From: Planctomycetota bacterium
Lineage (GTDB): Bacteria; Planctomycetota; Planctomycetia; Gemmatales; Gemmataceae
DNA: 64,000 nt
Assembly (NCBI GenBank): GCA_016191165.1
Contig: JACPPF010000037.1
Span: forward strand, 1 to 64,000
Direction of reading: 5' to 3'
This document shows positions 34,313 through 53,261 of this stretch, in pieces. Position numbers and translations under genes: made by a program. The notes under the pieces were generated by a model. It worked only from the letters and a program-made list of their open reading frames with translations. It was not told the DNA's origin and did no database searches. Position 1 is the stretch's first letter, and the number at the start of each line of letters is the position of its first letter.

Positions 34313-34963
34313 ATGACCATCACTGTCGACCAGATGCGCGAATCCTTCTACAGCGCAGTCGTTTGCGACGCGCTGGACGCCGCGGGTTTTCCGCGCCAGT
34401 CGCCGCGCGTCCAGCTTCGGCCCCTGACAGGGTCTGGCGTTCTCGTCGGCCGTTGCAAGACCACGCTGTGGGCGGACATGGCCCATGCCGATCCGAACCC
34501 GTATGAACTGGAACTGCGAGCGGTGGATAGTTGCGAGCCGGACAACGTCCTGATCGCCGCTGCCGCGGGTTCGATGCGTTCCGGCATCTGGGGCGAGTTG
34601 CTGACGACTGCCGCGCGCAATCAGGGCTGCGTCGGCGCGATCATTGACGGCGCGATCCGGGACGTGACCAAGATCCGTGCCCTGCAGTTTCCGGTTTTCG
34701 CCCTGGGCACGTGTATCTACGACAGCAAGGATCGGCAGCGCGTCATCGACATCGACGTGGTGGTCGAGATCGACGGGGTGCGATTCGAACCGGGTGATCT
34801 CGTCATCGCGGATGAGGACGGCGTGGTCGTCGTGCCGCGCGCGGTCGAGGACAAGGTCGTGCAAGCCGCCTGGGAGAAGGTCCACGCGGAGAACGCGGTG
34901 CGCGACGCGATTCGCGGCGGCATGAAGGCGACGGAAGTGTTTCGCAAATATGGCGTGTTGTAG
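34313..34963 (+). CDS. RraA-like protein (HMG aldolase/regulator family)
   Basis: The 216-residue protein carries the central RraA-fold signature GAIIDGAIRDVTKIRALQFPVFALG, in which the conserved Gly-Asp-Arg-Asp set binds metal and substrate in 4-hydroxy-4-methyl-2-oxoglutarate aldolases. GDLVIADEDGVVVVPR is the second hallmark. Family members act as class II aldolases, as RNase E regulators (RraA proper) or have unknown roles; the full active-site set here favours an enzyme. It is the last gene of the HDAC-SGNH-RraA run. A second, longer RraA-like protein lies at 46034-46786. Confidence 0.9.
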   Translation: MTITVDQMRESFYSAVVCDALDAAGFPRQSPRVQLRPLTGSGVLVGRCKTTLWADMAHADPNPYELELRAVDSCEPDNVLIAAAAGSMRSGIWGELLTTAARNQGCVGAIIDGAIRDVTKIRALQFPVFALGTCIYDSKDRQRVIDIDVVVEIDGVRFEPGDLVIADEDGVVVVPRAVEDKVVQAAWEKVHAENAVRDAIRGGMKATEVFRKYGVL

Positions 34964-41742: not shown

Positions 41743-43164
41743 TCAAACTTTCGCCAGCACCTCGCCCATGCTTCGGTCCAGAATCGACAACATTTCATCA
41801 ATCTGCTCGGCGGTGACCACCAGCGCCGGCCCGAACGCCAACCAATGCGGATCGAAGCGACACAAAAGGCCGTTGGCCAGCGCCTGCTTTCCGACTTGCG
41901 TGCCGAAGGCGACCGTTTGGGGAAACTGTTCCTTCGTCCTGGGATTCTTGACGAACTCCATGCCAAGGAACAGTCCCTTGCCGCGGATGTCGCCGATGAC
42001 GCCGTATTTGTCCGCGAGTTTCTGGAAGCCGGCCTTGAGCCTGGCGCCCTGCGTACGGGCGTTGGCACACAGATCGCGTTCGAGGATTTCGCGCAGCACG
42101 GCAATGCCGGCCGCGCAGGAAATCGGATTGCCCTCGAAGGTGTGGCCTTCGACGAAACCCGGATTCTCGCTGATCGGCCCCCAGAAGGCGTCGGCGATGG
42201 GCTGCCGGCAGATCATCGCCGAGACTGGCACGAACCCGCCCGACATGCCCTTGCCCGTGCAGATGACATCGGGGACCACGCCAAACGTCTCCGCGGCGAA
42301 CATGCGTCCCGTGCGGCCGATGCCGGTGATGATCTCATCGAAGATGAGCAGTACGTTGTGGCGATCGCACAACTCGCGCAGCATCGGCAGGTATTCCTCG
42401 GGCGGGTCGATGATGCCGCCGGTGTGGCCGATGGGCTCGACCATGACCGCAGCCACGGTTGCCGGGTCTTCCATGTCAATGACATCGTTAACAAGCGACG
42501 CGCACGTGATGTTGCAGCCATGCTCCCCTCGCCCCTCGTGGGAGAGGGGTTGGGGGTGAGGGACATAGGTCTTGCCAAACGGACAACGGTAGCAAGTCGG
42601 TGGAAAGACCTTTACGAAGCCGGGCGGCAGCGGTTCGTTCACGGTCTTGCGGGACTTCAGGCCCGATGCGGCCAGGGAGCCCATGGTTGAACCGTGCCAG
42701 GACTGGTAGCGGCTGATGATCTTGTACTTGGCTGGGTTGCCGGTCAGCTTGTGGTATTGGCGGGCCAGTTTGATCGCCGCCTCGGTGACTTCGGAGCCGC
42801 CGCACTGAAACTTGACCGTCGAAAGATCGCCCGGCGCGACCTCGGCCAGCAGATTCGCAAGTTGGACGGCGACCGGATTCGTGCCGTGCATGGGGGGCGA
42901 AAAGTGAAGCGTATCGAGTTGCGTGCGAACCGCGTCGATAACGCGCCGGTTGTTGTGCCCGACCGAGGCAACGTAGATGCCCGACAGCGCATCGAAATAG
43001 CGCTTGCCCGCCACATCCCAGTAGAACACGCCGTCCGCCTTCGCCATGATCAGCGGCTGCTTGGTCCATTCGTACATCTGATCGCGCACGAAGATATGGC
43101 GGAGGAAGGACTCCTCGGTGGTCTGCGCCTCGGTAATGAGATCGGGAAACGAATGGGATGGCAT
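41743..43164 (-). CDS. class III PLP-dependent aminotransferase
   Basis: The 473-residue enzyme (start 43164; upstream frame to 43302 not supported) has the class III hallmark DEIITGIGRTGRMFAAE and the PLP-lysine block CTGKGMSGGFVPVSA (Lys near 303). YFDALSGIYVASVGHNNRRV is the N-terminal glycine-rich block, and HTFEGNPISCAAGIAVL is the C-terminal one. Such enzymes move amino groups between omega- or beta-amino donors (such as beta-alanine, putrescine, taurine) and a keto acid. It stands divergent from the flippase-led cluster and might supply an amine to it, but it could equally be independent. Residues about 201-214 (VPHPQPLSHEGRGEHG) come from an inserted DNA repeat. Confidence 0.92.
   Translation of the reverse strand: MPSHSFPDLITEAQTTEESFLRHIFVRDQMYEWTKQPLIMAKADGVFYWDVAGKRYFDALSGIYVASVGHNNRRVIDAVRTQLDTLHFSPPMHGTNPVAVQLANLLAEVAPGDLSTVKFQCGGSEVTEAAIKLARQYHKLTGNPAKYKIISRYQSWHGSTMGSLAASGLKSRKTVNEPLPPGFVKVFPPTCYRCPFGKTYVPHPQPLSHEGRGEHGCNITCASLVNDVIDMEDPATVAAVMVEPIGHTGGIIDPPEEYLPMLRELCDRHNVLLIFDEIITGIGRTGRMFAAETFGVVPDVICTGKGMSGGFVPVSAMICRQPIADAFWGPISENPGFVEGHTFEGNPISCAAGIAVLREILERDLCANARTQGARLKAGFQKLADKYGVIGDIRGKGLFLGMEFVKNPRTKEQFPQTVAFGTQVGKQALANGLLCRFDPHWLAFGPALVVTAEQIDEMLSILDRSMGEVLAKV
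42522..42562. repeat. intragenic palindromic repeat (GGGGAG.CCCTC type) in the aminotransferase gene
   Basis: The sequence with inverted GCTCCCCTCGCCCCTC and GAGAGGGGTTGGGGGTGAGGG arms is read in frame as residues 201-214 of the aminotransferase (PHPQPLSHEGRG). The same repeat in opposite orientation lies inside lhr at 62559-62596. The repeat type is widely seen in intergenic bacterial DNA. It probably forms a loop that the enzyme tolerates. Confidence 0.75.
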
Positions 43165-43304
43165 GACCGTGGCCCTTGAAGCGGTTGCGGTTGGAGCGAT
43201 AGTCAACAGTCTAATGGGCGCGGGCCGGAATTGCAAGAAAACGGCGCCGCGATCGCCGCATCGCATGGTTTGCGTCAAAAATTCCGAATATCGGCCGGGC
43301 AAAA

Positions 43305-43334: not shown

Positions 43335-43373
43335 CGAGTGAAGGTTAATTCGGATCAGACGGCCGGGATAAAG

Positions 43374-44894
43374 ATGGATAATCCACGAACGCTCGCCCGC
43401 AACATGATTTGGAACTGGGCCGGCTTGGCCTTGGGTATGGCGGCCGGGTTCGTGGTCATGCCGTTTTTGATTCGCCGGCTGGGTGAGACCAACTACGGCC
43501 TGTGGGTTTTGATTGGCTCGCTGACGAGCTATTTTGGCCTTCTGGACCTGGGCGTGCGGGGATCGATTGGCAGATTCATCGCATTACACCGGGCGCGGGG
43601 AGATCAGGAGGCGGTCAACGCGACCTTGAGTACGTCGATGGCCATTCTGGGAACGCTTGCGTTCTTGGCCGTGGTCGGCGTTCTGGCGCTGGTGGTGGTT
43701 TTTTTCCAGCTGTTCGAGGTCTCCCCCGATGAGGTCGCCAACGTTCGCCTTGCCCTGGTGATCGTTGGGCTAAACCTGGCGTTGTCGTTTCCATTTAGCC
43801 TTTTCGACGCCATTCTCTGGGCGTACCAGAGATTTGACCTCCTGAACGCGATTGATATTCCGACCATCCTCGTGCGGACGGTTTTGACCTTTGCTCTGAT
43901 CGACGGCGAAGGCGATCTGGTGACGTTGGCGGTGCTCACGCTCCTGAGCGCCGTTTTGAATGCGGCCGCCAAGGCGGTTGCGAGCTACTACCTCGATCGA
44001 GGCCTCCGGATCAAGGTTGGGCTGGTGCGGCGCGAAATGGCCGGGGCGCTTTTTGGGTATGGGTTCTGGCACTTTCTGCTGACGGTCACCGTGCTGGTGT
44101 CGGGGCAGATGAGCCTCTTGATCGTCGGCGCGATGTTGAGTGTCGGGTTGGTGACGGTCTACAGCATTGCCCACCGCCTGGTTGGAATCGCTGGCGCTTT
44201 CTTGAATGCCGTGACCGGCGTGCTCACGCCGGTGGCAACCACGAACCACGCGGAGGATCAAGCGGAGCGACAACAGGACTTGTTCATTGCAGGAGGGAAA
44301 TACTGCCTGGCCCTGGGGCTTTTCTTCTGGGGTTTCTTCTTTTTCCTCGGCCAGTCGCTTCTGCTCCTCTGGCTGGGCTCGGAGCAGAGCGGTGCGGCGG
44401 AACTGCTGATCTTGATGGCTTCGGGTTTGATCCTGCCCATGTCCCAGCGCGTCACCCATAGCATCCTTTTGGGCATGGGACGCCACAAGGTGATTGCCCT
44501 GGTCGGCGTGGCTGAGAGTTTCGCGGGTACGATCCTGGCGCTGGCCGTCGCCGGGCGATTTGGCCTGATCGGGGTGTGCCTCGCCTTCGTGGCGTGCGAA
44601 TTCGTCTGTCGAGGGGTCATTCAGGCCATGTATACGTGTCGGCTGCTGGGGGTTTCGTATCGCCGGTATGTTGTCAACGCCCTGACGCCGCCGTTGATCG
44701 CGGCCGTGCTTCCGACGCTTGGATTGGCCGGCGTGACCTGGTTCTGGATGCCGGCGACCTGGCCGCAATTGATCCTGGCGACTGGCGTGTTCAGCCTGAT
44801 TTTCCTGGGCTCGTGCGTGTTATTCCTGAACGCCGGGCTCGGTCTGCGCCACGGGGTTTTCCCGACGTTCGGGACGGTTCCGAAGGAGGCCTGA
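43374..44894 (+). CDS. oligosaccharide flippase / MOP-superfamily exporter
   Basis: The 506-residue protein begins ARNMIWNWAGLALGMAAGFVVMPFLIRRLG and continues YGLWVLIGSLTSYFGLLDLG, matching Wzx-type polysaccharide flippases, with 12 or so membrane segments. The start at 43374 is chosen because the upstream GTG (43338) extension has no homology-like character. It moves a lipid-linked or large polar molecule across the cytoplasmic membrane. As the first gene of a long co-directional cluster with ligases and acyltransferases, it is the likely exporter for whatever the cluster makes. Some MOP members export peptides or small molecules, so an oligosaccharide cargo is not certain. Confidence 0.92.
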   Translation: MDNPRTLARNMIWNWAGLALGMAAGFVVMPFLIRRLGETNYGLWVLIGSLTSYFGLLDLGVRGSIGRFIALHRARGDQEAVNATLSTSMAILGTLAFLAVVGVLALVVVFFQLFEVSPDEVANVRLALVIVGLNLALSFPFSLFDAILWAYQRFDLLNAIDIPTILVRTVLTFALIDGEGDLVTLAVLTLLSAVLNAAAKAVASYYLDRGLRIKVGLVRREMAGALFGYGFWHFLLTVTVLVSGQMSLLIVGAMLSVGLVTVYSIAHRLVGIAGAFLNAVTGVLTPVATTNHAEDQAERQQDLFIAGGKYCLALGLFFWGFFFFLGQSLLLLWLGSEQSGAAELLILMASGLILPMSQRVTHSILLGMGRHKVIALVGVAESFAGTILALAVAGRFGLIGVCLAFVACEFVCRGVIQAMYTCRLLGVSYRRYVVNALTPPLIAAVLPTLGLAGVTWFWMPATWPQLILATGVFSLIFLGSCVLFLNAGLGLRHGVFPTFGTVPKEA

Positions 44895-44922
44895 AGTACC
44901 AGGCCGGCGGTCGAGTCTTTGT

Positions 44923-45053
44923 TTCTCGCAAAGACGCAAAGATCGCAAAGTAGGACAAGAGAATGGACGGGCGAGGAGTACAAGCAGAGGGGTGACAATT
45001 ACAGCCGGTTCCCTCGGTTGAATTCCTTTGCGTCCTTGGCGGCTTTGCGAGAA
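44923..45053. repeat. inverted repeat flanking the spacer before 45068
   Basis: TTCTCGCAAAGACGCAAAG at 44923-44941 and CTTTGCGTCCTTGGCGGC at 45026-45043 (ending GCTTTGCGAGAA at 45042-45053) are imperfect inverted copies; outer TTCTCGCAAAG pairs exactly with CTTTGCGAGAA. The pattern is a common dispersed bacterial repeat. It separates the flippase from the rest of the cluster and could form a leader structure or terminator. Confidence 0.75.
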
Positions 45054-45067
45054 CTCAAGAAAGGCTA

Positions 45068-45970
45068 ATGGCCATGTCGGCCGTGACGAAACCGGTCATT
45101 GGCATCCTGTTCCCCGGCGAAATGGGGTCCACGCTGGGACGGCTTCTGATTGGCCAGGGATATCGCGTGATTACCACGTTCGCGGGCCGAAGCGCGCGAA
45201 CCCAGCGACTGTCGGGCGACGCGGGTCTGGAAACGGTCGCTTCCATCGCCGACCTCGCTCGTGGGGCCCAAGTTGTTTTGTCGTCGGTGCCGCCCGGCGT
45301 GGCGCAGGCGGTGGCCAGGGGGTATTGCCTCAACATCGCTCCAGCGCAAGCGCCGTTGTACGTGGATCTCAACTCCATCTCCCCGGAGGAGACCCTCGCG
45401 ATTGCCGAGGCGTGCAAACAAAGAGGAGTTCGCTTCGTGGATGGAGCGATTCACGGCATGGCGGCACGACTGCCCGAGGCCGGGACTCTCTACCTAAGCG
45501 GACCGTGGGCCAACGAGGTGGCGGAAATGTTCGCTCCGGTGATGCGGGTCAAGGTTCTGGGCGAAACCGCAGGCCAGGCGTCGGCGTTCAAGATGCTGAT
45601 TTCTGGCCTGGCCAAGGGAGTCGTCGCCCTTTTTCTGGAAATGGCCCTCGCGGCCCGTGAGGCGGACCTTCTGGACGAGTTATTGACGTGCTATCGCGAT
45701 GCCTATCCCGGCATCATGGAACTGGTGGATCGGCTCCTGCCGACCTATCCCATGCACGCGGCCCGGCGCGGCGTCGAACTGGAGGAGGTCGGACGAACGT
45801 TCCGCGGCCTGGGCTTACGGCCTTGCCTGGTGTCGGCGGCACAGCAGCTCACCGCGGCGGTGGGGCGGCTTGACCTGGCCGACCGAAAACGAAGCGACGC
45901 CGCGAAATGGTCCGTGCCCGAAGTGATCGAAGTAATTTTTGCTGGCAACCCGCTGCGGGCATTCCAATAA
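45068..45970 (+). CDS. NAD(P)-dependent dehydrogenase, 6-phosphogluconate/hydroxyisobutyrate type with DUF1932-like C-terminus
   Basis: The 300-residue enzyme has a Rossmann N-terminus (IGILFPGEMGSTLGRLL, with GxxGxxG) and a helical C-terminal domain (SAFKMLISGLAKGVVALFLE, YPMHAARRGVELEEVGRTF) like DUF1932 proteins. VVLSSVPPGVAQAVAR and DLNSISPEET are conserved segments of the beta-hydroxyacid dehydrogenase superfamily, and KMLISGLAKG holds the catalytic Lys. It should oxidise or reduce a beta-hydroxy acid with NAD(P). AAAGG precedes the ATG. Context suggests it prepares a building block for the following ATP-grasp ligases. Confidence 0.85.
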   Translation: MAMSAVTKPVIGILFPGEMGSTLGRLLIGQGYRVITTFAGRSARTQRLSGDAGLETVASIADLARGAQVVLSSVPPGVAQAVARGYCLNIAPAQAPLYVDLNSISPEETLAIAEACKQRGVRFVDGAIHGMAARLPEAGTLYLSGPWANEVAEMFAPVMRVKVLGETAGQASAFKMLISGLAKGVVALFLEMALAAREADLLDELLTCYRDAYPGIMELVDRLLPTYPMHAARRGVELEEVGRTFRGLGLRPCLVSAAQQLTAAVGRLDLADRKRSDAAKWSVPEVIEVIFAGNPLRAFQ

Positions 45971-45972
45971 CC

Positions 45973-45996
45973 AGCCCCACGCGCCAGTGTGGGGGC
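45973..45996. repeat. short family C hairpin
   Basis: AGCCCCAC and GTGGGGGCT form an 8-bp stem around a 7-base loop, related to the CCCCACGCG palindrome at 16121-16181. It sits between the dehydrogenase and RraA-like genes in the cluster. Confidence 0.7.
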
Positions 45997-46033
45997 TTGC
46001 CCGGCGATTCCAGCCTTTGGAGGGGATAAAGTC

Positions 46034-46786
46034 ATGGCGAAAAAACCGCGCTCGGCAGAACTGCATCCTGGCCCCGGGTTCCGCGTGAGGACCGACTTTC
46101 CGCGCCTGGACAAGGCCCTGTATCAACAACTAGGGGAATTTCCCACTCCCGACATCTCCGACCTGTTGAATCGGCTTTACGCCGTGGACCCGGCCATCAC
46201 CTGCCTGACCGGCGCCCACCACCGCTTGTGTGGGCCGGCCTGCACGGTCAAGGTGTTTCCTGGCGACAACCTTCTGGTTCACAAGTCACTGGATGTTGCC
46301 CAGCCTGGCGACATCGTGGTCGTGGACGCCGGGGGATCAACCATGAACGCGGTCCTCGGCGATCTGGTTTCGACCAAGGCCAAGCATCGGCACATCGCCG
46401 GCTTCATCGTCGATGGCCTGATCCGCGATCTGCCCGGGATCATGCCGCTGGATTTTCCGATCTTCGCACGCGGCGTCACTCCCATCGGTCCCTTGCATCG
46501 CGGGCCGGGGGAGATCAATTTTCCGATCTGTTGCGGCGGCATCGTGGTCAATCCGGGCGACATCATCGTGGGCGATGCCGCCGGCGTCGTCGTGGTGCCG
46601 CGGGAGATCACCCACGAACTTTTGGCCAGGCTGCAAAGCCACGAGGAAGCGAATGCGGCCTATTTCGCATCGGTCAAACGAGGCGATTTCTCCAATCAGT
46701 GGGTGGACCGAATGCTCGAAGAGCTGAATTGCCCCACGTTTGAAGCGGAACCATGTTTTTCCACCATGAAACCCGAGGAGTTCTGA
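46034..46786 (+). CDS. RraA-like protein of the biosynthetic cluster
   Basis: The start at 46034 has GGAGGGG 8 bases upstream. The 250-residue protein has the RraA signature GFIVDGLIRDLPGIMPLDFPIFARGVTP and a second block GDIIVGDAAGVVVVPREI, so metal and substrate residues are present. It extends about 30 residues longer than the copy at 34313, with an extra N-terminal segment (FPRLDKALYQQLGEFPTPDISDLLNR) and a C-terminal helix. Aldolase activity on a 2-oxo-4-hydroxy acid, or oxaloacetate decarboxylation, would fit. Two bases separate its stop from the next start, so it is tightly coupled to the oxygenase-like gene. Confidence 0.9.
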   Translation: MAKKPRSAELHPGPGFRVRTDFPRLDKALYQQLGEFPTPDISDLLNRLYAVDPAITCLTGAHHRLCGPACTVKVFPGDNLLVHKSLDVAQPGDIVVVDAGGSTMNAVLGDLVSTKAKHRHIAGFIVDGLIRDLPGIMPLDFPIFARGVTPIGPLHRGPGEINFPICCGGIVVNPGDIIVGDAAGVVVVPREITHELLARLQSHEEANAAYFASVKRGDFSNQWVDRMLEELNCPTFEAEPCFSTMKPEEF

Positions 46787-46787
46787 A

Positions 46788-47828
46788 ATGGCCCGTATGT
46801 TTTCGTTTGATCCCCGCGACTACGCAGCGACTTTTCGCAGCGAGGGATTCGTGCACATTCCCGGGGGGTTGTCGGAAGAATTTTACCAGATTCTTTCCCG
46901 GCAAGTTGACGAGTACCTCGCCGGCGAGTTGATGAAAGATTTCGCCATCGGCGACAAGCAACAGGCCCTGTATCAGTTTCCTCCGAACGGAAACTACCAG
47001 GAAGACCTGAGACAGGCCGTTGCCGGCGTGTGTGGTGTTGAGGCCTCGGCGCTGGTCTTGTCGGAACGCCACATCAAGGCGTATGAGGCCAAGGCGATCC
47101 CGGATCCCCTGGCCCATAAAGATCGCTTTGCGTCGGAATTCTCCGTCGGGTTTTCGGTTCGCGTGGCCAATGAATCCACGCTGTCCTTGTTCCCGTATGA
47201 CGAGCTGGATGTCAATCCCTTCAACTCGTCCACGGAACTGCGCGCCAGCTTGAGACCCGCTTGGCTGCCGGAGAAACCGCTCCAGAATGCCCGCCGCGTT
47301 GACATCAAGGATTCGCCAGGCGATGTGATCATGTTCCGTGGCAACTCGATCTGGCACCTTCGCTCCAGGCCGGCGGGCACGGTCATGCTGTACCTGAAAT
47401 TGAACACGTTCAACTGCGACCCTCTGGGTGAGGACGCGGCCACGGCTGACTTCCGCAAACGTACCAACGAATTGCTGACGCATTCCGATGCGGAGCTTGA
47501 GCCGATGATCCCGCTGCTTGGTCGGCGCGTCGATTATTTTCACCGCCGGTACAACCGGGATTGGCAAGAAGTCATCGGCGTGGTCCTGTGGGGAGAACGG
47601 CATTTCACCATCGACGCGGAAGAATTGCGCGCCTTACAGGCGGTTGACGGGAAGCGATCAGTTCGAGAGATGATCGAGGCCATGGGCCCGGGCGGCGCCT
47701 GGCAGGAGCGAATGGAAAAGGTCCGGGCCCTCGCGGCTCGGGGGATTCTGGATTTGCTTCCGGCCCGCGTGAACAGTCACCGGAGCAACGGCACCCTCCA
47801 GGAGGATCGCCTGCTCGTTTCCGTGTGA
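46788..47828 (+). CDS. Fe(II)/2-oxoglutarate oxygenase-like protein with winged-helix-like tail
   Basis: The 346-residue protein has the phytanoyl-CoA-hydroxylase-like opening DYAATFRSEGFVHIPGGLS. The facial triad candidates are H110-K-D112 and H190 (GDVIMFRGNSIWHLRSRPAG), and the following R194 is placed to bind 2-oxoglutarate. A separate C-terminal part (about 275-330: FTIDAEELRALQAVDGKRSVREMIEAMG) has the look of the PqqD-like or winged-helix domain seen in peptide-modifying proteins. It could hydroxylate an amino-acid or peptide intermediate. It is directly preceded by the RraA gene with a 1-base gap, and followed by ATP-grasp genes. Both assignments are by motif only. Confidence 0.78.
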   Translation: MARMFSFDPRDYAATFRSEGFVHIPGGLSEEFYQILSRQVDEYLAGELMKDFAIGDKQQALYQFPPNGNYQEDLRQAVAGVCGVEASALVLSERHIKAYEAKAIPDPLAHKDRFASEFSVGFSVRVANESTLSLFPYDELDVNPFNSSTELRASLRPAWLPEKPLQNARRVDIKDSPGDVIMFRGNSIWHLRSRPAGTVMLYLKLNTFNCDPLGEDAATADFRKRTNELLTHSDAELEPMIPLLGRRVDYFHRRYNRDWQEVIGVVLWGERHFTIDAEELRALQAVDGKRSVREMIEAMGPGGAWQERMEKVRALAARGILDLLPARVNSHRSNGTLQEDRLLVSV

Positions 47829-47899
47829 TTGAAGGTTTTCACGCAGGTTTGGACGGAACCGTTGCGTAATCAGCACCGGATTGCGAATTGGAGAAGAAC

Positions 47900-49015
47900 A
47901 TGCTGGATCTTACGCGGCATCCCCGGCTGGTAAAAATGCTTTCCTGGTGGGACCGCATAAAAGCCTCGTTGAACGGGCGTCACGCCAAGGGACAGGCTGC
48001 CGAGAAGAACCTCGGCGCGTTTTATGCCCGAATCTGGCGCGAGGCGGCGCTTGCCGTGGGAGCGACAATCGAGTCCCTGGGACATGATGTCTTCGAGATT
48101 CGCCGGGGCGAGGCGCGCACCCGCGTGCTTCAGAATTTCACCGGCATGGACGACCTGGCCACCCACTGCGTCGTCCGGGCCAAGCCGGTGATCTATCGGT
48201 TGTTGCGCGACGCGGGTTTGCCCACCCCTCGCTTCGTCGATTTCGACAGTCAGGATTTGACGCCGGCCGTGGCTTTCATGGAAAGCGCCGACAGAGATTG
48301 CGTCGTCAAACCCGCCAGCGGAACGGGCGGTGGGCTCGGGGTGACCACCGGGATTCGCAGTCGATGGCAGCTGGCCCGATCCGCTTTTTCCGCTGGCAGG
48401 TTCGGAGGTGATTTGTTGATCGAGGAGCAGGTCGCCGGCGAAAACTACCGGCTCTTGTATCTCGACGGCAAACTCATTGACGCTGTCGTCCGCAGGCCCC
48501 CCTCGGTCACCGGGGACGGAAAACACAGCATCGCCCAGCTCGTCGAGGCAGCCAATTCTCGACGGCTTCAACAAGACCAGTCCGTTTCGCACGATCTGCT
48601 CGGCGTGGACATGGACATGAGGAATACCCTGGCCAGGCACGGCCGGTCGCTGCGCTCGATTCCCGGCCCTGGCGAGGTCGTTTTTTTGAAGACGGTGATC
48701 AACCAAAACTCCGGGGCCGATAACGAGACCGCCACGTCGATTCTGTGCGAATCGGTCATTGCCGCTGGCGCGCGAGCGGCAGAAGTGGCTGGCGTGCGGC
48801 TGGCGGGGGTGGATGTCATTACCACGGATCCCGGGCGCCCTTTGGGCGAGACGGGCGGCGTCATCCTGGAGGTCAACTCGCCGCCGGGCTATTTTTGGCA
48901 TTACCACAAGCGCGATGGCGAGTTCCCTCTGGCGGTAGTCGTGCTCGAATGTCTGCTTGCTGGTCCGCGCGGAATTCAATCCATGCTCTGTGAAACGGAG
49001 TCGCTCGCCCTGTAG
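47900..49015 (+). CDS. ATP-grasp ligase, cyanophycin-synthetase/glutathione-synthetase-like
   Basis: The 371-residue protein starts at 47900 with GGAG upstream. ATP-grasp hallmarks are VIYRLLRDAGLPTPRFVDF, CVVKPASGTGGGLGVT (nucleotide-binding loop) and LLIEEQVAGENYRLLYLDG, followed by the metal site GGVILEVNSPPGY. The lid motif VVRRPPSVTGDGKHSI is close to the cyanophycin synthetase and MurE-like ATP-grasp proteins. It should join a carboxylate with an amine using ATP, with an acyl phosphate intermediate. It lacks the Mur ligase half of cyanophycin synthetase. Second gene of the ligase section of the cluster. Confidence 0.88.
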   Translation: MLDLTRHPRLVKMLSWWDRIKASLNGRHAKGQAAEKNLGAFYARIWREAALAVGATIESLGHDVFEIRRGEARTRVLQNFTGMDDLATHCVVRAKPVIYRLLRDAGLPTPRFVDFDSQDLTPAVAFMESADRDCVVKPASGTGGGLGVTTGIRSRWQLARSAFSAGRFGGDLLIEEQVAGENYRLLYLDGKLIDAVVRRPPSVTGDGKHSIAQLVEAANSRRLQQDQSVSHDLLGVDMDMRNTLARHGRSLRSIPGPGEVVFLKTVINQNSGADNETATSILCESVIAAGARAAEVAGVRLAGVDVITTDPGRPLGETGGVILEVNSPPGYFWHYHKRDGEFPLAVVVLECLLAGPRGIQSMLCETESLAL

Positions 49016-49047
49016 CACGGGCCCCTGACGCCAAGGAATGTATCAGA

Positions 49048-50298
49048 ATGAACAACCTGATCCCCATGCCGTGTGAACGACCTGAGCCGCACGCTCGGCG
49101 CCAAAAAGCCGGCGGCGCTCGAATCCCGGCCATCGTGCTTGGCGGGAGCGCGAATGCCCTTTCCGTGGTGCGCAGCCTCGGACGGGCCGGCGTTCCGGTG
49201 TCAGTCATCAACCAGGCCGATTCGGCGGCGCGGCGCTCCCGTTATGCCCGCTGGATCCCTCTTTCGGAAGACGGCCAGGTGGAAGAAGTCTGGGCGAATT
49301 TTTTGCTCGGGCCCGAGTCGGATCATTTGGCCGGCGCAGTCCTCTTTCCCTGCTGCGATCCGGCTCTGGAGATCCTCGCCCGGCATCGCGCCGAGCTGGC
49401 GGAAAAATTCACACTGGACGACGCCAATCCGCAGGCGCGCATCGCCATGCTGAACAAAATCAGCACCTACCAAATCGCCGCCGCCGCCGGCATCGCCACC
49501 CCCCGTTTTTGGCAATTGACCGCGGGCCAGGACCTTCACGCCCTGGAAGCGGAGTTGTCGTTTCCGCTGATCGTAAAGCCGTCGCATACGCATCTTTTTC
49601 GTGAGCGGTACGGAAAAAAATTCGTCACCGTCCACGATTTCGCGGCACTCAACGAAGCCTACCAGCTGGTGCGCGAGCTGGGCATTGACGTGATGCTCGT
49701 CGAGTTCATCCCCGGTCTGGATGACCAGCTGTGTAGTTACTACACCTACCTGGACCACGACGCCGAGCCGTGCTTCCATTTCACCAAGCGCGTCATTCGA
49801 CGTTATCCCCTGGTCATTGGCAACGGTTGTTATCACATCACCGACTGGAACCCGGAAGTGGCATCCGCGGGGCTGGCTTTTCTGCGCGCCGCCGGCGTGC
49901 GCGGCCTGGGCAACGTGGAGTTCAAACGCGACCCGCGCGACGGGGCCCTCAAGCTGATCGAATGCAACGCTCGCCTCACCGAGGCCAACTGCCTCGTCGC
50001 AGCCGCCGGCCTCGACCTGCCCTTGTTCGTCTACAACCGCTTGACCGGCGGGGATCCCGTAACCCTCGCGCCATACCGGCAAGGCCTGCGCCTCTGGTAT
50101 CCCTTCGCGGATTTCCGCGCCTTCCGCCAGCTTCATCGAGAAGGGCAGATCTCGTGGGCGACGTGGCTTAAAAGCATCGTCCATCCGCAGACGTTCCCTT
50201 TTTTTCGCTGGAGCGACCCGTGGCCGAGTGTGATCCGGGCATGGTCCAATCTGCAAGACAGCGTCAAACGCCGGTTACAAAAAAAGACCTCCGCTTGA
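49048..50298 (+). CDS. ATP-grasp carboxylate-amine ligase
   Basis: The 416-residue protein has IPAIVLGGSANALSVVRSLG at the N-terminus (a preATP-grasp Rossmann-like domain) and the ATP-grasp core LSFPLIVKPSHTHLFRERYG, VMLVEFIPGLDDQLCSYYTY and NVEFKRDPRDGALKLIECNA, with the metal-binding E-x-N. It is a different subfamily from the neighbouring ATP-grasp ligase and closer to the carbamoyl-phosphate-type predicted ATP-grasp enzymes seen next to polysaccharide genes. Having two distinct ATP-grasp ligases in tandem suggests two different amide-bond steps. It follows the previous gene by 32 bases. Confidence 0.88.
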   Translation: MNNLIPMPCERPEPHARRQKAGGARIPAIVLGGSANALSVVRSLGRAGVPVSVINQADSAARRSRYARWIPLSEDGQVEEVWANFLLGPESDHLAGAVLFPCCDPALEILARHRAELAEKFTLDDANPQARIAMLNKISTYQIAAAAGIATPRFWQLTAGQDLHALEAELSFPLIVKPSHTHLFRERYGKKFVTVHDFAALNEAYQLVRELGIDVMLVEFIPGLDDQLCSYYTYLDHDAEPCFHFTKRVIRRYPLVIGNGCYHITDWNPEVASAGLAFLRAAGVRGLGNVEFKRDPRDGALKLIECNARLTEANCLVAAAGLDLPLFVYNRLTGGDPVTLAPYRQGLRLWYPFADFRAFRQLHREGQISWATWLKSIVHPQTFPFFRWSDPWPSVIRAWSNLQDSVKRRLQKKTSA

Positions 50299-50325
50299 TC
50301 GGAGCAATGCGACGGGAGAAAGAAC

Positions 50326-51552
50326 ATGGAAATCACGCTGGAGACCTCGAAACGCCCACCGCCGACCTCCGCGCCGCCGCGGCCGGCTGGCGCCAAAGAC
50401 GCCGGCGATGCACAACTACGCGTTGTGGTCGTTGACAGCGCGGAGGCACTCGAGGCCCATGTGTCGGCCTGGCAGGATTTGGCTGCCCAAGCCCTCGAAC
50501 CCAATCCGTTCTACGAACCCTGGATGCTGATGCCGGCGCTACGCGCTTTTGGCAAGGGCCAGGACCTCTTGTTCGTATTCCTCTATCGCGACACTCCCGG
50601 CGCCAAGGCGCGCCTGTGCGGATTCTTTCCGCTGCACCGGCGCCGGCTCAAAAAGATATCGCTTCTTGGTTTGTGGCAACACCAGCACTGTTTTCTATGC
50701 ACCCCATTGTTGCGCAAGGAGGACGCCGTCGAGTGCCTGGCCGCCGTGGTGGATTGGGCACGCCGTGATCGGCGCGGCGCCTCGATTCTGGAATTCAATC
50801 AGGTCAGCGCCGAGGGCGGATTCCATCGAAGCTGGATTGATTTCCTTCAGCGCCACGAATGCTTTACCTTTTTGCAAGCCTGTCATACCCGGGCTTTATG
50901 GCAGCCCCGAGCCGACGTCGATACCTATGTCAACCTGGCTCTTTCCAGCAGCGGACGACAGGATTTTCGCCGCAAACGAAAACGGCTGGGTGAACTCGGC
51001 CGACTCGAATTCAGGTCTCTGGAAATCGGCGGAGACGTCGAGCGCTGGCTCACCCAGTTTCTTGAGGTGGAAGCGAGTGGCTGGAAAGGGGACCAGCAAA
51101 CCGCCCTGGCGAAAATTCCGGAAGAACGAGAATACTTTCTGGAAATCGGCCGGGCCGCGTTTGCCCGGGGCCAGTTGCAAATGCTTGGCCTGTTTCTCGA
51201 CGACAAGCCCATTGCCCTGAAGTGTAATTTTCTGTCCGGCGCCGGCGCCTTCGTCTTCAAGCCCGCCTATGACGAATCCTTCGCCCGCTATTCCCCGGGA
51301 GCCCTGCTGGAACTTGACAACATGCAGCTTTGCCACCGGTCCTCGCCTGTCCCGTGGATGGACTCCTGCACCGAGCCCGATCATCCCCTCTGGAATCGGC
51401 TCTGGATGGATCGACGCCCGATCCAGACCATTCTTCTTTCCACGGGTGGAACCTGGGGGAATTTGCTGGTGTCGTTGCGACCTCTCCTGAGGTGGTTTGG
51501 CACGTGGCTCCGGAGAAAACGGCCGACATCTGGACAACCGGCGCCTTCGTAA
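50326..51552 (+). CDS. BioF2/CelD-type GNAT acyltransferase 1
   Basis: The 408-residue protein contains the BioF2-like acetyltransferase domain (Acetyltransf_6, FemAB-related) with WQDLAAQALEPNPFYEPWML and FVFKPAYDESFARYSPGALLEL near residues 305-330. The KPAYDESFxxYSPG block is diagnostic for the CelD/BcsL group, which is found in exopolysaccharide and cell-envelope clusters and may transfer acyl or aminoacyl groups. An N-terminal Pro-rich linker of about 25 residues precedes the domain. It is 27 bases after the ATP-grasp gene and 33 bases before a paralog of the same family. Confidence 0.87.
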   Translation: MEITLETSKRPPPTSAPPRPAGAKDAGDAQLRVVVVDSAEALEAHVSAWQDLAAQALEPNPFYEPWMLMPALRAFGKGQDLLFVFLYRDTPGAKARLCGFFPLHRRRLKKISLLGLWQHQHCFLCTPLLRKEDAVECLAAVVDWARRDRRGASILEFNQVSAEGGFHRSWIDFLQRHECFTFLQACHTRALWQPRADVDTYVNLALSSSGRQDFRRKRKRLGELGRLEFRSLEIGGDVERWLTQFLEVEASGWKGDQQTALAKIPEEREYFLEIGRAAFARGQLQMLGLFLDDKPIALKCNFLSGAGAFVFKPAYDESFARYSPGALLELDNMQLCHRSSPVPWMDSCTEPDHPLWNRLWMDRRPIQTILLSTGGTWGNLLVSLRPLLRWFGTWLRRKRPTSGQPAPS

Positions 51553-51585
51553 TTGGGCGACCTCGAACTGCAAACAGGTATTCAC

Positions 51586-52833
51586 ATGGAAACTTCACTG
51601 GTCATCGCCGAGACCGTCCAGCCACGGGCTGCCGAGGCGTCACTACGTCTCGAAGTGGTGACCTCGCCTGAGGTGCTGGAAAACCTTCGCACGGACTGGA
51701 CTGACCTTTTGGCTCGCAGCGCGAGCCCGGAGCCCATGTTGAGCCCGACCTGGCTTCTACCGTGGTGGCGGATTTATGGTGGGGGCCGGGAATTGCGCGT
51801 CGGGGTTTTTTATCAGGGCGAGCAACTCGTCGGCCTGGCTCCCTTGCAACACCGCCGCCACTGGTATCGGCCGGGCATCCCCTTCTGGCGCCTGGAACCC
51901 CTGGGCGCCGACGTGGACGAACAGGACGGCGTCGGCTCGGACTACCTCAACATCATCGCCCAGACGGGCCGCGAGAAAGCGGTGGCCGACAGCCTGGCCG
52001 ATTCCCTGGCCAGCGGGAAATTCGGGAAGTGGTCCGAATTCGTGATCCCGTCGATGGACGAAGGCAACATTATGGTGCCGCTCCTGGGTCAGGCACTCAA
52101 CCGCGTCGGGCTTACCGTGGCGAGTCCCATTACGGGTGCAGCGCCGTATATTCCGTTGCCGAGGACCTGGCCTGACTATCTGCAATCCTTGCATCAAAAA
52201 AAACGCTACGTCATTACGCGTTCCATGCGGGATTTTGAAACCTGGACGGGCGGGGCCTGGAAACTTCATCAGGCCCGCAACACCGCCGACCTCGCCGAGG
52301 GGAGTCGAATCCTTGCTGACCTGCACAACGCCCGCTGGCACGCCGATGGTGAGACCGGCGCTTTTCAACAAAGGCGTTTTCAGGCCTTTCACGCGGACGT
52401 CATGCAGCGCCTTTTGGAAGAAAACCGCCTGGAACTCACCTGGCTAACCGCGCATGGCGAGCCGATCGCGGCGCTTTACAATGTGATTGAAAATAACAAG
52501 GTCTACTTTTATCAATCCGGGCGCCGGACCGACCTGCCGAAGGGGCAACGCCCGGGGATTGTCATCCTGGCCATGGCAATCCAGCGGGCCATTGCGAGCG
52601 GGAGACGCGAATTCGATTTCCTGGCAGGCCCCTCACAATACAAAAGTCAATTCGCTCCGCTCCAGCGCTCCCTGGTCGAACTCCGCGCCGTGCCGTCCTG
52701 CCTGAATGAACAGGTCCGCCGCTGGGCCCAGCTTGGCAAACGTGGCGCCCGCTTTCTCATTCATCAGGTCAGATCAACCTTTCCCCGCTGGCTTGGAACG
52801 GGCAAGCCAAATGCAAACCAGAACCCGGATTGA
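51586..52833 (+). CDS. BioF2/CelD-type GNAT acyltransferase 2
   Basis: The 415-residue protein starts at 51586 (AGGT upstream); the in-frame TTG at 51553 gives an extension without character. The pattern is that of the CelD/BcsL acetyltransferase family: RTDWTDLLARSASPEPMLSP, LLPWWRIYGGGREL, and the C-terminal block FDFLAGPSQYKSQFAP. It differs strongly from the preceding paralog, especially in the middle, and so is likely to have a different donor or acceptor. It is the last gene of the cluster, and a 428-base spacer with an inverted repeat follows. No donor-loading enzyme is visible, so an aminoacyl-tRNA or acyl-CoA donor is possible. Confidence 0.87.
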   Translation: METSLVIAETVQPRAAEASLRLEVVTSPEVLENLRTDWTDLLARSASPEPMLSPTWLLPWWRIYGGGRELRVGVFYQGEQLVGLAPLQHRRHWYRPGIPFWRLEPLGADVDEQDGVGSDYLNIIAQTGREKAVADSLADSLASGKFGKWSEFVIPSMDEGNIMVPLLGQALNRVGLTVASPITGAAPYIPLPRTWPDYLQSLHQKKRYVITRSMRDFETWTGGAWKLHQARNTADLAEGSRILADLHNARWHADGETGAFQQRRFQAFHADVMQRLLEENRLELTWLTAHGEPIAALYNVIENNKVYFYQSGRRTDLPKGQRPGIVILAMAIQRAIASGRREFDFLAGPSQYKSQFAPLQRSLVELRAVPSCLNEQVRRWAQLGKRGARFLIHQVRSTFPRWLGTGKPNANQNPD

Positions 52834-53261
52834 TCGAATCCCGTCCCCTTGGCGCACGTCATGGTCCAGCAATTCTCCTGGCGGCGTCGGCATGGCGCGA
52901 GGCGACAATTGCGAAGGCGCAATGATCCACCGGTGATCCCACCGCGCGTCTTTGCGTCCGCCTGTTTTGCCTGGTTTTTGTGCAAAGGCCGTCGAAACGG
53001 CGCTGGAGAGTTTATTGTACCTAGAGAATTGAGGAGCCGAACACTCAGGGCGGGCGTTGCCCACAACCCAACCAGGCAATGTGGAATGAAGAGTCAGGAA
53101 TTCGGAAGTGCTCGACCGCGGCGTCCTCCAATTTCTCAATTCCTCGTTCTTCATTCCTTATGGCATTTCCTCGTGCGGCGCGAGAATCTTGTGGTAATCT
53201 CCATGAAGCAGGCGGGGCCACGGCCGCTCGCTCCGTGTGCGCCTCTTTCTCTTGGGCGCTT
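52834..53261. other. 428-bp convergent spacer at the cluster end
   Basis: No gene is supported. A hairpin lies at 53083-53157, and GCGTCTTTGCGTCC near 52950 resembles part of the repeat at 45026-45053. The region separates the plus-strand cluster from the convergent ABC importer operon. Confidence 0.6.
53083..53157. repeat. inverted repeat in the convergent spacer
   Basis: GGAATGAAGAGTCAGGAATT (53083-53102) and AATTCCTCGTTCTTCATTCC (53138-53157) pair at 17 of 20 positions with a 35-base loop. The position favours a terminator for both the cluster and the importer operon. Confidence 0.8.

Follow-up and report, generated by a model that had tools for sequence, protein, structure and literature searches.

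We propose that an eight-gene cluster in a 64,000-nucleotide stretch of planctomycete DNA (hereafter, the window) is probably an exopolysaccharide-decoration module of Planctomycetota, the core of which would make a small non-sugar acid and two amide bonds. Four of the genes form a conserved unit, their products have diverged in parallel and retain their catalytic motifs, and in relatives the unit sits in an exopolysaccharide context. From this pattern we infer what the substrates may be, in what order the steps may proceed, how the product may be attached to a glycan, and what the accessory genes may contribute.

Organization of the cluster and its surroundings

The window lies on contig C23 of the draft genome G000 (7.2 Mb in 183 contigs). 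Positions 43338 to 52833 of the plus strand hold eight uninterrupted ORFs separated, from 5′ to 3′, by 173, 18, 1, 59, 32, 27, and 0 nt, which bears out the eight genes, the order, and the single strand given in a preliminary description of the sequence. The flippase start reported there, 43374, is an internal ATG and likely the true start, but the ORF itself opens at a GTG at 43338. Seven of the eight family labels are backed by Pfam or NCBIfam; the gene labeled as an Fe/2OG oxygenase matched no family, and its label comes from a reading of motifs.

The cluster is flanked by opposite-strand genes that look unrelated to it: upstream, a class III aminotransferase gene, and downstream, genes for an ABC importer and an NMT1-type binding protein. 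The gap between the flippase and dehydrogenase genes contains an imperfect inverted repeat (44916 to 45060; 57-nt arms, 70% complementary) with many TTTGCG motifs. It may be a repeat of the dispersed kind, or it may mark the boundary between two transcription units. A second repeat-like element, a 32-nt inverted repeat (75% complementary), lies between convergent genes directly downstream of the cluster (53076 to 53164). Inside the aminotransferase ORF (41743 to 43302), a G+C-rich palindrome-like element (CCCTCACCCCCAACCCCTCTCCCACGAGGGGCGAGGGGAG) at positions 42505 to 42565 (minus strand) encodes VPHPQPLSHEGRGEHG as an in-frame insertion. This element resembles a repeat element inserted into coding sequence; it is present in a single copy in the window, and no exact copy was found in the relative loci retrieved. 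Ten kilobases upstream of the cluster, at 34313 to 34963, is a second ORF that is RraA-like by eye (MTITVDQMRESFYSAVVCDALDAAGFPRQ...). About 11.5 to 14.5 kb downstream, at positions 64272 to 67348 of contig C23 (L027:272-3348), three ORFs that by eye resemble a sulfotransferase (one ORF) and NAD-dependent epimerases (two ORFs) are possible further sugar genes.

A conserved four-gene core

We define the core as the genes for a dehydrogenase, an RraA-type protein, a cyanophycin-synthetase-like ATP-grasp protein (AG1), and a PRK12767-like ATP-grasp protein (AG2). All 17 planctomycete genomes with a close AG2 orthologue, the window genome included, carry these genes in the order dehydrogenase-RraA-AG1-AG2. 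Four families are represented among these genomes, and one of the four lies outside the class of the window genome. Because the same four genes recur in the same order in every one of these genomes, the clustering is far beyond chance. As a negative control, we inspected four loci whose AG2 homologues are more distant (L060-L063), in which the dehydrogenase, RraA, and AG1 genes are all absent nearby, and therefore we regard the four-gene core as a true and specific unit. The pairwise distance matrices of the four core proteins are strongly correlated (Mantel r = 0.84 to 0.92; 0 of 2,000 permutations reached the observed value). This parallel divergence fits co-inheritance as one unit, although part of the correlation comes from shared species history. 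Across the 17 orthologues, catalytic residues of the core proteins are kept almost throughout.

The distribution of the core, which we searched for in Planctomycetota only, is patchy. A profile search with AG2 recovered strong orthologues in 2 of the 102 genomes of the window's order and in five others of a 392-genome sample of the phylum, while family-level searches of three families yielded AG2 orthologues in 10 of 149, 4 of 170, and 1 of 16 genomes (already known genomes counted in). Within the window's genus, none of the six further genomes has close relatives of AG1 and AG2; within its order, 2 of 102 do. One instance is in a metagenome-assembled genome (MAG) of the same family, "Planctomycetota bacterium K_Offshore_120m_mx_222" (G093; hereafter, the sister MAG), where the gene order is GNAT-dehydrogenase-RraA-AG1-oxygenase-AG2 and the proteins are 40 to 68% identical to those of the window. 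A scan of genome contigs with peptide patterns detected the sister MAG alone, as the patterns were narrow.

The preliminary description had read all eight genes as a single pathway and had proposed a search for co-occurrence of the eight families. In the 17 genomes, the four core genes are always together, but the other four are not constant: the Fe/2OG-like gene and the GNAT genes vary by locus, and the flippase is replaced. The idea of one pathway is retained, with a conserved unit of four genes and not of all eight.

Predicted enzymes of the core

The first core gene (45068 to 45970, plus strand) encodes a beta-hydroxyacid dehydrogenase-like protein with a DUF1932 C-terminal domain (Pfam DUF1932, 4.4e−11; NAD_binding_2, 1.4e−9). 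Most of the glycine-rich nucleotide-binding loop is kept among the 17 orthologues and K183 is invariant, while K175, the expected position of the usual catalytic Lys, is Arg in the sister MAG. The second core gene (45989 to 46786, plus strand), which opens with a GTG at 45989 but may actually start farther downstream, encodes a protein of the RraA/HMG-CHA-aldolase family (Pfam RraA-like, 6.6e−47; NCBIfam PRK06201, 3.6e−69, above the cut-off). Its closest solved structure is the HMG/CHA aldolase 3NOJ (1e−26), in which Arg-123 stabilizes the pyruvate enolate and Asp-124 binds the metal (PMC5065237). The residues aligned to this pair, R146 and D147, are invariant in the 17 orthologues, and together with the family match they place the protein in the RraA/HMG-CHA aldolase superfamily. 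The protein falls short of the LigK equivalog cut-offs (PRK09262, 131.9 versus 179 bits; ligK, 121.3 versus 304.5 bits). Aldolases of the 3NOJ type may have a third acidic residue following the Arg-Asp pair, and this residue is not conserved in the orthologues. Given this and the Arg at position 175 in the sister MAG, non-standard chemistry of the dehydrogenase or the RraA protein is possible.

The remaining two core genes encode ATP-grasp proteins. AG1 (47888 to 49015, plus strand) is a stand-alone ligase of the cyanophycin-synthetase/GshF/NAGGN-synthetase group (cya_phycin_syn, 1e−42) that matches cyanophycin synthase in the PDB (1.9e−30); it is not a full-length CphA, as it reaches 146 of 850 bits with TIGR02068 and covers positions 139 to 458 of the 862 in that profile. 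AG2 (49048 to 50298, plus strand) is a carboxylate-amine ligase-like protein of the PRK12767/CPSase-like type (PRK12767, 1.2e−10; CPSase_L_D2, 4.9e−5). Invariant in the 17 orthologues are K141, E179, R188, and E328-x-N330 of AG1 and K177, E219, E291, and E305-C-N307 of AG2. Both proteins have the ATP-binding Lys and the metal-binding Glu-x-Asn of ATP-grasp amide ligases, and this retention of residues is as expected if both work as ATP-grasp ligases. Among the plasmid matches listed for AG1 and AG2, identities are below 34%, and those with an annotation are CphA/NAGGN synthetases or generic ATP-grasp/carbamoyl-phosphate-synthase-like proteins. The amide-linked product suggested in the preliminary description is upheld as likely.

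Exopolysaccharide genes surround the core in most relatives

Of the 16 relative loci, 14 have genes of two or more exopolysaccharide families within about 10 kb of the core. These neighbors are of the Wzx/Wzy type and comprise initiating sugar transferase, Wzz, Wzy, Poly_export, flippase, glycosyltransferases, and polysaccharide deacetylase. Counted over the 16 loci by blastp clusters, whose representatives were identified to family, the deacetylase occurs in 12, Bac_transf in 11, Wzz in 9, and Poly_export and Wzy_C in 7 each. The arrangement is clearest in the single-contig genome G482, which has, in this order, Bac_transf, Acetyltransf_6 GNAT, GT2-like (assigned by eye), Wzz, Wzy_C, the four core genes, HTTM, polysaccharide deacetylase, and Poly_export. 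HTTM-like proteins are encoded in 11 loci, mostly directly after AG2, and APH-type kinases in some. Two loci contain no exopolysaccharide genes, L076 and L026, the latter cut at the contig start. Two side observations concern individual loci. At L055:2468-5266, beside the core, a flippase and an APH-type kinase domain share one open frame of 932 amino acids; elsewhere they are separate neighboring genes. In two relatives (L077:10477-11031 and L055:10622-11104), a gene of a small protein family separates AG2 from the HTTM-like gene; the one member checked had no Pfam match.

In the window, no glycosyltransferase, Wzy, Wzz, or initiating sugar transferase gene is next to the core, and the Wzy_C and Bac_transf genes of the window genome are on contigs C166 and C85. 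Because Wzy, the initiating transferase, and glycosyltransferases are not beside the core, we call the window cluster a module working with a Wzx/Wzy locus and not a complete locus. The earlier remark that no glycosyltransferase accompanies these genes accordingly holds for the cluster of the window genome but not for the 14 relatives with the core among exopolysaccharide genes. Of the two products considered in the preliminary description, a modified peptide and an envelope conjugate, the envelope conjugate is the better option. The single-pathway idea had also been said to fail if the cluster matched a known capsule or siderophore locus; the setting is indeed that of a polysaccharide locus, but we found no such locus described.

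Accessory genes of the window

The flippase (43338 to 44894, plus strand) is of the Wzx/MATE type (Pfam Polysacc_synt, 2.3e−13; Polysacc_synt_3, 2e−6) and matches NCBIfam WZX_like at 1.2e−10, under the model cut-off. The window therefore has one component of a Wzx/Wzy-dependent locus, a flippase of a polysaccharide-export family. Flippases of the relatives have no similarity to it detectable by blastp, and different flippases take its place. The two genes at the end of the cluster encode divergent Acetyltransf_6 (CelD/FemAB-like) GNATs at 50326 to 51552 (Pfam, 1.4e−21) and 51553 to 52833 (Pfam, 1.4e−25), both on the plus strand. The first has a 40% identical orthologue in L026, at the contig edge of the sister MAG's locus; the second has no counterpart in the relative loci (blastp, 1e−6). 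Other Acetyltransf_6 genes are present in five relative loci. The flippase and the two FemAB-like GNATs fit an exopolysaccharide setting. We also considered a BspF-type effector for the first GNAT and rejected it, as 122 of 775 bits reflect general family similarity only.

The remaining gene (46788 to 47828, plus strand) is a lineage-specific accessory gene for a putative PhyH-like Fe/2OG oxygenase, with an H110-x-D112...H190 motif and a possible PqqD-like C-terminal segment. The protein had no Pfam or NCBIfam match. It has an orthologue (49% identity) only in the sister MAG, with no further match in the 392-genome sample of the phylum, and a search of plasmids found none. H110-x-D112 and H190 are kept in both sequences, although two sequences carry little weight. 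Profile comparison with four PhyH proteins of the window genome gave a weak alignment, confined to 31 N-terminal residues, that was better than those of four control profiles; a profile search of the PDB gave only a weak PqqD-like C-terminal match (E = 0.16) and one unrelated match. An AlphaFold model from the two sequences (pLDDT 34) was unusable and was discarded, and a YopM match from a single-sequence search, covering 48 residues, was taken as spurious. An Fe/2OG oxygenase is a plausible though putative identity for this protein.

Proposed role of the module and alternatives

We hypothesize that the RraA-type enzyme would make or break a hydroxy or oxo acid via pyruvate-enolate aldol or decarboxylase chemistry, and that the DUF1932 dehydrogenase would interconvert the hydroxy and oxo forms of the acid. 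AG1 and AG2 would activate carboxylates with ATP and form two amide bonds, through which the acid may be coupled to an amino acid, to the amine or carboxylate of a sugar in the repeat unit (an amino sugar or a uronic acid), or to both. The Wzx flippase would then flip the decorated lipid-linked unit, to be polymerized by Wzy machinery that is encoded beside the core in relatives and on other contigs in the window genome. The FemAB-like GNATs may add a further acyl or aminoacyl group and, in the lineage of the window, the putative oxygenase may introduce a further modification. More tentatively, the product could be an undescribed glycan substituent, in which a hydroxy/oxo acid made by the RraA and DUF1932 enzymes would be linked to both an amino acid and a polysaccharide sugar through two amide bonds that the ATP-grasp ligases form one after the other; tailoring by an oxygenase, HTTM protein, or kinase would vary with the lineage.

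An alternative product is a secreted free small molecule: the eight genes would make a modified, dipeptide-like amide, and the MATE-like flippase would export it. MATE-fold proteins are able to export small molecules, two ATP-grasp ligases and GNATs could build short amides, and polysaccharide genes do not adjoin the core in the window genome or in L076. Nevertheless, we consider such a product unlikely: 14 of the 16 relatives carry the core within Wzx/Wzy-type loci, the flippase matches polysaccharide families while the Pfam scan reported no drug-efflux MATE model, and the GNATs and the oxygenase are not conserved with the core. Somewhat less probable still is that the decorated molecule is a lipid carrier, a glycolipid, or a surface protein and that the polysaccharide genes are neighbors sharing export. 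The APH-type kinases and HTTM-type membrane proteins that recur by the core could act on lipids or proteins, but no lipid-specific or protein-targeting gene is constant, and initiating sugar transferase, polysaccharide deacetylase, and HTTM are the commonest neighbors. We regard as highly improbable both a RiPP of the graspetide type and a set of unrelated housekeeping genes brought together by chance: ATP-grasp enzymes are a graspetide hallmark, but these ligases fall in the cyanophycin-synthetase-like and PRK12767-like groups and, judged from the gaps alone, 0 to 173 nt between genes leave little space for a precursor gene, while synteny in 17 of 17 genomes and parallel divergence exclude chance assembly.

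Decoration of an exopolysaccharide, the reading that we favor, would give a concrete and testable function, including in single-contig genomes, to the RraA and DUF1932 families, whose members are widespread and mostly unclear in biological role. The surface-polymer chemistry of planctomycetes is likewise little known, and the core can serve to mark, in genomes, a type of polysaccharide decoration for which we found no description.

Comparison with known systems

The preliminary description named no matching cluster, and none was found in the literature searched. That literature consisted mostly of freely readable papers, and an earlier mention of the four-gene core is possible. The stieleriacine (N-acyl tyrosine) clusters of Planctomycetota were considered and set aside; the main text of the paper describing them has no ATP-grasp, dehydrogenase, or aldolase. 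Loci of the PEP-CTERM/EpsH type and other Wzx/Wzy loci share with the core loci their Bac_transf, chain-length determinant, polysaccharide deacetylase, and glycosyltransferase neighbors (PMC1569441), and we did not find the four-gene core mentioned there.

At the level of single enzymes, the RraA protein resembles HMG/CHA aldolase-oxaloacetate decarboxylase and RraA in its catalytic Arg/Asp pair (3NOJ; PMC5065237). It differs from the 3NOJ-type aldolase in scoring under the ligK and PRK09262 cut-offs and in a genome context of polysaccharide synthesis instead of aromatic degradation. Similarly, AG1 belongs to the same sequence group as the ATP-grasp domains of cyanophycin synthetase, NAGGN synthetase, and GshF and retains ATP-grasp catalytic residues, but it is a single 375-amino-acid protein without Mur-ligase, GNAT, or GshA partner domains and is encoded together with RraA and AG2.

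The closest parallel in function is in Campylobacter jejuni, in which an ATP-grasp domain amidates glucuronic acid in capsule synthesis (PMC11800379). There, the C-terminal ATP-grasp domain of Cj1438 acts with Cj1435 as a capsule-locus ligase that links a small amine, through an amide bond, to the carboxylate of a sugar in the polysaccharide as it grows (PMC11800379), and we propose the same principle for the core. Unlike in the core, the ATP-grasp domain of Cj1438 is TupA-like and fused to a glycosyltransferase, the amine is serinol-P or ethanolamine-P, and neither an RraA protein nor a DUF1932 dehydrogenase is described as part of the amidation (PMC11800379). Because the enzymes differ, we regard Cj1438 as a functional parallel and not as a member of the same family. 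We rate the core as a probable amide-decoration module for surface polysaccharides, with the four-gene unit itself not found described in the literature searched.
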